Origin: Halorussus gelatinilyticus
GTDB lineage: Archaea > Halobacteriota > Halobacteria > Halobacteriales > Haladaptataceae
DNA: 64,000 bases
Reading direction: 5' to 3'
Assembly (NCBI RefSeq): GCF_023238445.1
Contig: NZ_CP096658.1
Span: forward strand, 124,001-188,000
A model generated the notes under the pieces. The model worked only from the letters and a program-made list of their open reading frames with translations. It searched no databases and was not told the origin of the DNA. A program made the translations under genes and the position numbers. Of this stretch, positions 3,136 through 4,215 are shown one piece after another (within the stretch, counting starts at the first letter, position 1; each line of letters opens with the position of its first letter).

Positions 3136-3282
3136 AGTCGGCGATAGTCCGCCGTGCTGCAGTGCGGTCCCGTCGTGTCGGAAGTAGTCACGTTCTCTCG
3201 ACTCTCGTGTCGTTCCGCGATGCGGACCATCTAGTCCGCCGAACCGACGCGCTAGTCCCCGAATCCGACACCGTAGGAGGTT

Positions 3283-3292
3283 TATATACCCG
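3283..3292 (+). promoter_or_regulatory. TATA box of tRNA-Leu
   Basis: GTTTATATAC lies about 55 nt before the mature tRNA 5' end. A start site 25 nt further on would give a 5' leader of about 30 nt for RNase P to remove. A second, weaker TTTTA stretch lies at about 3295. Confidence 0.55.
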
Positions 3293-3340: not shown

Positions 3341-3425
3341 GCGAGGGTAGCCAAGCCTGGCCAACGGCGGCGGACTCAAGATCCGCTCCCGTAGGGGTCC
3401 AAGGGTTCGAATCCCTTCCCTCGCA
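3341..3425 (+). tRNA. tRNA-Leu (CAA)
   Basis: An 85-nt class II tRNA. The acceptor stem GCGAGGG pairs with CCCTCGC at 3418-3424, with A as discriminator; CCA is not encoded. The anticodon stem GCGGA/TCCGC encloses the loop CTCAAGA, giving anticodon CAA, which reads UUG leucine codons. A long variable arm and the T arm (AAGGG-TTCGAAT-CCCTT) are visible. No intron is present. Confidence 0.97.
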
Positions 3426-3433
3426 CTCGATGG

Positions 3434-3531
3434 CGTGGTTCTGCCACGTAGCGTGGCTTTGCCACGTCCGAAAGTGCAAGCAAGACCGCTTCGGAGCGTC
3501 TTGCCCTCGCAAACTACGGCCCACGCGGGCC
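3434..3531 (+). other. hairpin array just downstream of tRNA-Leu
   Basis: Four hairpins follow each other. The first two are tandem 18-nt units at 3433-3450 and 3451-3468 (GCGTGG...CCACGT, differing at three positions). The third, at 3481-3503, pairs CAAGAC with GTCTTG around a TCGG/TTCG-type loop. The fourth, at 3518-3531, pairs GGCCC with GGGCC. There is no open frame here that looks like a protein. They may be a tRNA 3' trailer or terminator, or part of an unannotated RNA. Confidence 0.45.
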
Positions 3532-3674
3532 CTCGCAACATTCCTCGGGTGCTAACCTCGTAGCGACTGCTCTCGGTTCGGAGAAGAACTGTATCTTGCC
3601 CTCGAAATAGCTTACACGTTTCCCACGATTCGGAACTGGTTCGAGAACTCGACGAAGACGTTCTAGAAAGCCCC

Positions 3675-3772
3675 CGCCCGCTCGCGGTCGCTCCGCAAGA
3701 TATCCTCGACTCACCTTCGGTTCGTCTCGGATAGTAGCTTGCGGAGACGACTAAATTGGACGCGAGCGGGCG
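3675..3772. repeat. long imperfect inverted repeat in gene-free region
   Basis: CGCCCGCTCGCG (3675-3686) pairs with CGCGAGCGGGCG (3761-3772). CTCCGCAAG (3691-3699) pairs with CTTGCGGAG (3738-3746). TATCC (3701-3705) pairs with GGATA (3729-3733). The three arms nest in order, so the whole 98 nt could fold into one long stem. It lies in the 529-nt gap (3426-3954) between tRNA-Leu and the next gene, where I see no coding region. Confidence 0.55.
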
Positions 3773-3954
3773 GCCCCTTTCAGTCCACTGGAGGACAAAC
3801 CGCGTCCTCCGAGCCTGCACTCGCTTCACTCGCGCAGACACCCAAACGAGTTTTTGCGTCACCGAGCGTTCGCCGGTCGTTTACGTCACCGAGCGCATCC
3901 TCGCAGTTCGTCGCGCGTCAAGAGCTAACTACGTGTAAACCGTGAGGGGAAGCG

Positions 3955-4215
3955 ATGAAGTGGCACCGACGGCGGGACCTCGAAGGCGGCAAGGAAATCG
4001 GCGTCTGGTTGCTCGCGGACGACGACGGGAGCGTCGAGCGCGAACTCTACGTCGAGTCCCACGAGTACCGCGGCGGCGACTTCGACGTGTACACGATGGC
4101 CGACGACGAGTGGACCCACGAAGGTGAGTTCGAGACCAGCGAGGAGGCCTTCGCTCGCGCGCTCGACCTCCTCGAATCGAGTTCACACGCGGTCGAGGAC
4201 GACGGACACGCCTGA
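3955..4215 (+). CDS. small conserved-looking haloarchaeal protein, unknown function
   Basis: 86 residues, acidic, with a mixed beta/alpha pattern (KEIGVWLLADDDGSVERELY, then a C-terminal helix EEAFARALDLLES) and no Cys cluster, signal or membrane segment. The codon positions show the strong third-position GC of the neighbouring genes, which supports a real gene. The ATG at 3955 follows GAGGGG eight bases upstream, a possible ribosome-binding site. It converges on the PHP gene with 7 bp between the stops. I do not recognise the family. Confidence 0.65.
   Translation: MKWHRRRDLEGGKEIGVWLLADDDGSVERELYVESHEYRGGDFDVYTMADDEWTHEGEFETSEEAFARALDLLESSSHAVEDDGHA

Follow-up and report, generated by a model that had tools for sequence, protein, structure and literature searches.

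The gene-free stretch that follows tRNA-Leu(CAA) in Halorussus gelatinilyticus is almost certainly composite and consists of two separate parts, a hairpin module at 3423-3537 and a dispersed palindrome at 3666-3788. As the best overall explanation we propose, with a probability of roughly one half, that the first part has long been a structured 3' trailer of the tRNA and that the second is unrelated to it and probably represents a non-autonomous mobile repeat. A hairpin trailer that carries a copy of the 3' end of its own tRNA would be, as far as our literature searches reached, an undescribed tRNA gene architecture, and nothing on either repeat was found in the open-access literature, searched by sequence and by topic. 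The module is kept at tRNA-Leu(CAA) in a large share of the order, and within the H. gelatinilyticus genome other tRNAs echo it with longer copies of their own ends. This architecture bears on the ending of archaeal tRNA transcripts and on tRNA ends as docking sites for mobile DNA.

The window, i.e. the whole stretch of DNA analysed, comprises 64,000 nt of assembly GCF_023238445.1 (NZ_CP096658.1, positions 124,001 to 188,000, forward strand) and lies within a single 3.67-Mb contig. Genomic copy counts were obtained by sequence, profile or pattern searches of genomes. The following features are discussed:

3281-3288, plus strand: TTTATATA, probable TATA box 53 nt upstream of the tRNA, with a putative promoter role
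3341-3425, plus strand: tRNA-Leu(CAA), ending in CCCTCGCA (ARAGORN, whose call runs to 3426)
3423-3477, plus strand: helix H0, GCACT (3423-3427) with AGTGC (3473-3477), starting on the final tRNA bases, with the small hairpins enclosed by it
3433-3467, plus strand: two tandem GCGTGG/CCACGT hairpins, of which species have 0-3
3480-3504, plus strand: hairpin H1, GCAAGAC/GTCTTGC with a CTTCGG loop, running into the copied tRNA end
3504-3511, plus strand: first copy of the tRNA 3' end behind the gene, CCCTCGCA, recognised by sequence and found order-wide
3518-3531, plus strand: hairpin H2, GGCCC-ACGC-GGGCC, leading like H1 straight into a copied tRNA end, mainly in Halorussus, with similar units in some other genera
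3530-3537, plus strand: second copy of the tRNA 3' end behind the gene, CCCTCGCA, with a weak T-rich trailer, ACATTCC, after it
3666-3788, plus strand: element A, dispersed palindrome GAAAG...CTTTCAGTCCAC, 32 copies, with paired changes and mismatch symmetry
3789-3839, plus strand: element B, dispersed hairpin GGAGGACAAACCGCGTCCTCCGAG..., sitting at the edge of element A as an insertion
3842-3920, plus strand: degenerate 27-nt repeat tail of GGTGGTYTGYGTCACCGAGCG type, found behind most copies of element A

A preliminary description of this DNA had read four consecutive hairpins at 3434-3531, with tandem 18-nt units and a TTCG-type loop, a nested inverted repeat at 3675-3772 and no plausible protein. 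All four hairpins are present and map to 3433-3531; the tandem units are the GCGTGG/CCACGT hairpins at 3433-3449 and 3451-3467, the loop is the CTTCGG of the hairpin at 3480-3504, and the inverted repeat is slightly longer than claimed, its full extent being 3666-3781. There is no convincing gene in 3427-3954, and the first plausible ORF (3955-4215) encodes a product with relatives across haloarchaea. Apart from a 43-base match beside another tRNA-Leu, 3427-3640 is single-copy in the genome. Rfam gave no match at gathering thresholds and, with relaxed settings, one miRNA match at chance level (E = 1.1). The two alternatives offered in the preliminary description divide between the two parts of the stretch. 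A structured RNA made together with the tRNA fits 3423-3537, which is tRNA-linked, conserved and covarying and has a T-rich trailer behind it; a decayed mobile element beside the tRNA fits the dispersed, tRNA-unrelated palindrome at 3666-3788.

The hairpin module behind tRNA-Leu(CAA)

tRNA-Leu(CAA) was located in genomes of the order, yielding 40 downstream stretches from 12 families, and H1 together with the copied tRNA end is found in at least 9 of the 12 haloarchaeal families sampled. A search with 3470-3545 returned a single match in 17 of the 18 Halorussus genomes as well as in each of two sister-genus genomes, always with tRNA-Leu(CAA) just upstream; the eighteenth Halorussus genome (G020) carries the module too, located there by tRNA position (L160). 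When the orthologous stretch from tRNA-Leu(CAA) to the following 86-aa gene was compared in Halorussus relatives, H1 and H2 were present in every one inspected. Lack of conservation in close relatives had been named beforehand as an argument against an RNA; the module is conserved in them, whereas 3666-3788 is not conserved at this locus.

The usual layout begins with H0 (GCAY...RTGC) on the last bases of the tRNA, often continues with more hairpins, and ends with H1 and then CCTCGCA. The H1 stem is of the type GGAAGA...TCTTCC or GGCAAGA...TCTTGCC and leads directly into CCTCGCA, a copy of the 3' acceptor strand of the tRNA. Some genomes are without a clear H1, and in H. gelatinilyticus an H1-type unit stands at two of the five tRNA-Leu genes. 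Hairpins of the GCGTGG/CCACGT type occur also beside tRNA-Leu(GAG). In other families, decayed pseudo-tRNA-Leu fragments lie downstream of tRNA-Leu(CAA) at three loci (L131, L121 and L157), and at L131 the tRNA 3' end and H0-H1 are themselves duplicated.

Compensatory stem changes, which the preliminary description had expected of an RNA, were looked for in related genomes and are present in both H0 and H1. The variable position of H0 covaries, C with G and T with A, and an exact helix of at least 5 bp is found in 36 of 52 genomes, as against 4 of 44 other tRNAs of the H. gelatinilyticus genome. All 24 distinct forms of H1 fold flush with the copied tRNA end. Three or four kinds of base pair occur at several of its positions, and one pair varies in presence, with both partners gained or lost jointly. 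The MAFFT alignment of H1, which sets the two stem classes out of register, was excluded from the pair counts. Flush hairpins with 6 bp or more were counted in 34 of 46 genomes compared to 35 of 345 background CCTCGC sites, a count that took in H2 (GGCCC/GGGCC) in ten Halorussus genomes, while H1 proper was tabulated apart. The folding energy of the four-hairpin stretch is modest in comparison with shuffles (z = -2.5, 3 of 200 shuffles). Assignment of H1-H2 as box C/D, H/ACA or bulge-helix-bulge was dropped by eye, since box C and opposed 3-nt bulges are missing and the hairpins are too short for a guide pocket.

The usual trailer of this tRNA is displaced. A T-rich trailer (e.g. CTTCT) lies at most 14 nt after 35 of the 46 tRNAs of the H. 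gelatinilyticus genome; directly after tRNA-Leu(CAA) it occurs in 0 of 46 genomes, and in 30 of 46 it stands behind the last CCCTCGC copy. A generic scan found no oligo-T terminator. Upstream, TTTATATA at 3281-3288 is the sole occurrence of this sequence in the window, where 0.01 would be expected. Since 3423-3537 is tRNA-linked, since H1 is conserved order-wide with covarying stems and since the usual T-rich trailer follows behind, the module is probably transcribed together with tRNA-Leu(CAA). The displaced trailer and the lone TTTATATA would most simply be read as marking a precursor that reads through the hairpins and stops after them.

In the mechanism that we propose, a promoter at 3281 would drive a single precursor through H0, H1 and H2, and a tRNase Z cut after the tRNA would free the hairpin tail, which may then serve mainly as a structured trailer and terminator region. 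From the conserved structure at tRNA-Leu(CAA) we argue that the module does something now; that its main role is that of a structured trailer and terminator region is a tentative assignment, to which we give slightly less than even odds.

Copied tRNA ends and readings of the module

Downstream copies are also found at other tRNAs of H. gelatinilyticus. The own acceptor 7-mer recurs within 200 nt downstream of 10 of the 46 tRNAs, with 0.9 expected from swapped pairs, and 8 of the 46 have copies of 14-23 nt of their own end downstream (0.3 expected). Only the 14-nt row of the longest-common-substring controls was used, because shorter controls are inflated by shared T-arm sequence. In most cases the copy belongs to a larger hairpin as its 3' arm, and the opposite arm is antisense to the T-arm. 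A core like GTCGCACGCCCGGAACGG is common to several of these tRNA-end hairpins, and the core pattern has five exact matches in the genome, all just downstream of tRNAs. Own-end copies of 9-23 nt, forming hairpin 3' arms about 85-145 nt downstream, were observed at the tRNAs Val-cac, Val-tac, Tyr and Asp (L175, L176, L181, L183) and at Ser-gga, Arg-gcg, Leu-tag and Gly-tcc (L189, L198, L204, L168). Behind tRNA-Gly(TCC) (L168), at a distance of about 70-200 nt, a direct repeat (ACTTCTCCGACGAACTACCCGGCG twice) extends beyond the end of the tRNA to include trailer sequence and resembles an attachment-site duplication. tRNA-Leu(GAG), with the acceptor end CCCACGCA, has CCCACGCA again downstream behind a hairpin; since this tRNA carries its own, different end, the copied end follows the tRNA. 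It is plausible from these sequences that the downstream copies are duplications left by the integration of tRNA-targeting elements.

At tRNA-Leu(CAA) the layout would be read as the end of the tRNA, then an antisense-like arm, a hairpin, a sense copy of that end and the original trailer. Its origin would most likely be a duplication of the tRNA 3' end, through integration of an element there or through fold-back copying, and the duplicated end may later have been kept for structure.

H0-H1-H2 might also be no more than a scar left where elements once integrated at the 3' end of the tRNA, with no present function. Direct downstream copies, as an integration scar would leave them, are found, with CCCTCGCA twice at tRNA-Leu(CAA), 79-105 nt after the tRNA end. 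The tRNA-end copies of 14-23 nt behind other tRNAs and the pseudo-tRNA-Leu pieces at the same locus in other genomes likewise suit a scar. Between the tRNA end and the CCCTCGCA copies there is no integrase or element gene, and no integrase was seen nearby. A scar should decay, however; the stems of H1 covary, and most families have kept the unit at this tRNA. We regard a functionless scar as rather unlikely.

A second reading would make the freed hairpin tail a trans-acting small RNA with the repeated, single-stranded CCUCGCA as its active part. The motif is indeed repeated between conserved hairpins, and small RNAs processed from tRNA-like precursors are established in Haloferax by the t-element work cited in PMC4326828. 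But the motif is accounted for by its identity with the tRNA end, it becomes CCCACGCA beside tRNA-Leu(GAG), and the number of hairpins is variable, so that a small RNA of this kind appears quite improbable.

We see little prospect for a general haloarchaeal scheme in which a hairpin with an antisense arm and a sense copy would offer two competing 3' ends and make maturation switchable. At tRNA-Leu(CAA), a refolding switch in maturation would have the downstream copy compete with the tRNA 3' end for the 5' acceptor strand, and predicted folds do pair the 5' strand with the downstream copy in 45 of 46 genomes. Shuffled spacers, however, give the same fold in 534 of 540 cases (98.9%); the refolding prediction was therefore rejected as evidence, and such a switch seems highly improbable.

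Dispersed elements A and B

Element A is a dispersed repeat of Halorussus genomes with up to more than 100 copies. It is about 120 bp long, and its inverted repeat at 3666-3781 folds at -65.3 kcal/mol compared to -40.2 for shuffles (z = -7.4, 0 of 200). Searched with the large inverted repeat, the genome gave 37 matching pieces; by covariance model, there are 32 copies in the H. gelatinilyticus genome and from 0 to at least 126 per Halorussus genome. At the threshold used, element A is absent from one member of the same genus (G018), whereas more than 100 copies occur in relatives. Matches occur patchily over the order, in 61 of 136 genomes. According to a simple ORF-based gene guess, 28 of 30 copies are intergenic and show no orientation preference toward genes (8/7/6/7).

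In the stems, 93.3% of cells pair over 52 distinct copies, which differ by 130 double and few single changes. Mismatches comprise 19 G.T and 24 A.C, i.e. there is no G.U excess. An RNA stem would tolerate G.U; since G.T is no commoner than A.C, the palindrome appears to be kept at the DNA level or by recombination. Element A is thus a warning that strong covariation by itself is no proof of RNA.

The intact element is missing at the orthologous site in G024, G013, G012, G023 and G026, with apparent remnants at that site in G012, G016 and G023, and G021 has a copy at a different position. In G013, two copies with unrelated flanks do not differ over 126 bp, which points to recent spread or could reflect gene conversion. 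No target-site duplication was evident by eye in the copies L057 and L080. As in small mobile repeats (SMR) and MITEs, we find a short non-coding multicopy repeat with terminal inverted repeats that is present or absent at orthologous sites. Element A is likely to be a DNA-level mobile repeat, and on sequence grounds it is most likely a non-autonomous one, unrelated to the tRNA.

The strong fold and the covariation would suit a structured RNA as well, but the equal numbers of G.T and A.C mismatches (19 and 24), the random orientation to genes and a copy number between 0 and more than 100 within one genus leave an RNA instead of a DNA element barely credible. That the whole of 3426-3954 is one structured RNA, as every hairpin lies on one gene-free stretch, is refuted by the roughly 30 occurrences of element A elsewhere in the genome and by relatives that keep H1-H2 with element A missing or degraded at the site.

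Element B gave 15 pattern matches in the genome (3789-3839 and 14 other sites) and 0 for a reversed control pattern; its hairpin, of type GGAAGACAAACCGCGTCTTCCGAG, is sometimes nested inside element A, as in the copies L008, L014 and L016. The tail spacing is 27 or multiples of it in many copies of element A. The 27-nt tail repeats were observed at fixed distances from the palindrome, and one frame reads as 9-residue repeats.

Comparison with known systems

Integrative elements that target tRNA genes leave an attachment-site duplication, in which the 3' end of the tRNA is repeated and the original trailer comes after the repeat. The module at tRNA-Leu(CAA) has the same order of parts, a copy of the tRNA 3' end with the original trailer behind it. 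Unlike attachment-site duplications, its copies are only about 40-150 nt apart, form hairpins, occur order-wide at one tRNA and have no integrase nearby.

The t-elements of Haloferax volcanii are tRNA-like and processed by tRNase Z, the known one lying upstream of 5S rRNA (PMC4326828). Like them, H1 is a haloarchaeal hairpin that sits flush against an acceptor-like 3' strand and next to an RNA gene, where RNase P and tRNase Z would probably act. In contrast to the t-element upstream of 5S rRNA, H1 lies downstream of a complete tRNA and repeats the end of this tRNA. It also lacks a 5' acceptor strand and would need that of the tRNA, a point on which fold predictions do not discriminate.

Palindromes of the REP type are intergenic and multicopy. 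Element A is likewise intergenic, palindromic and present in many copies, but it is longer (about 120 bp) and has constant internal loops. Haloquadratum walsbyi carries SMR and MITEs, the HqIRS families (PMC3119063). Like these, element A is short, multicopy, without transposase, bounded by terminal inverted repeats and nested with other repeats (PMC3119063); unlike them, it is palindromic along nearly its whole length and has a 27-nt repeat tail. By analogy of architecture, the Haloquadratum SMR and MITEs would be the closest described kinds to element A.
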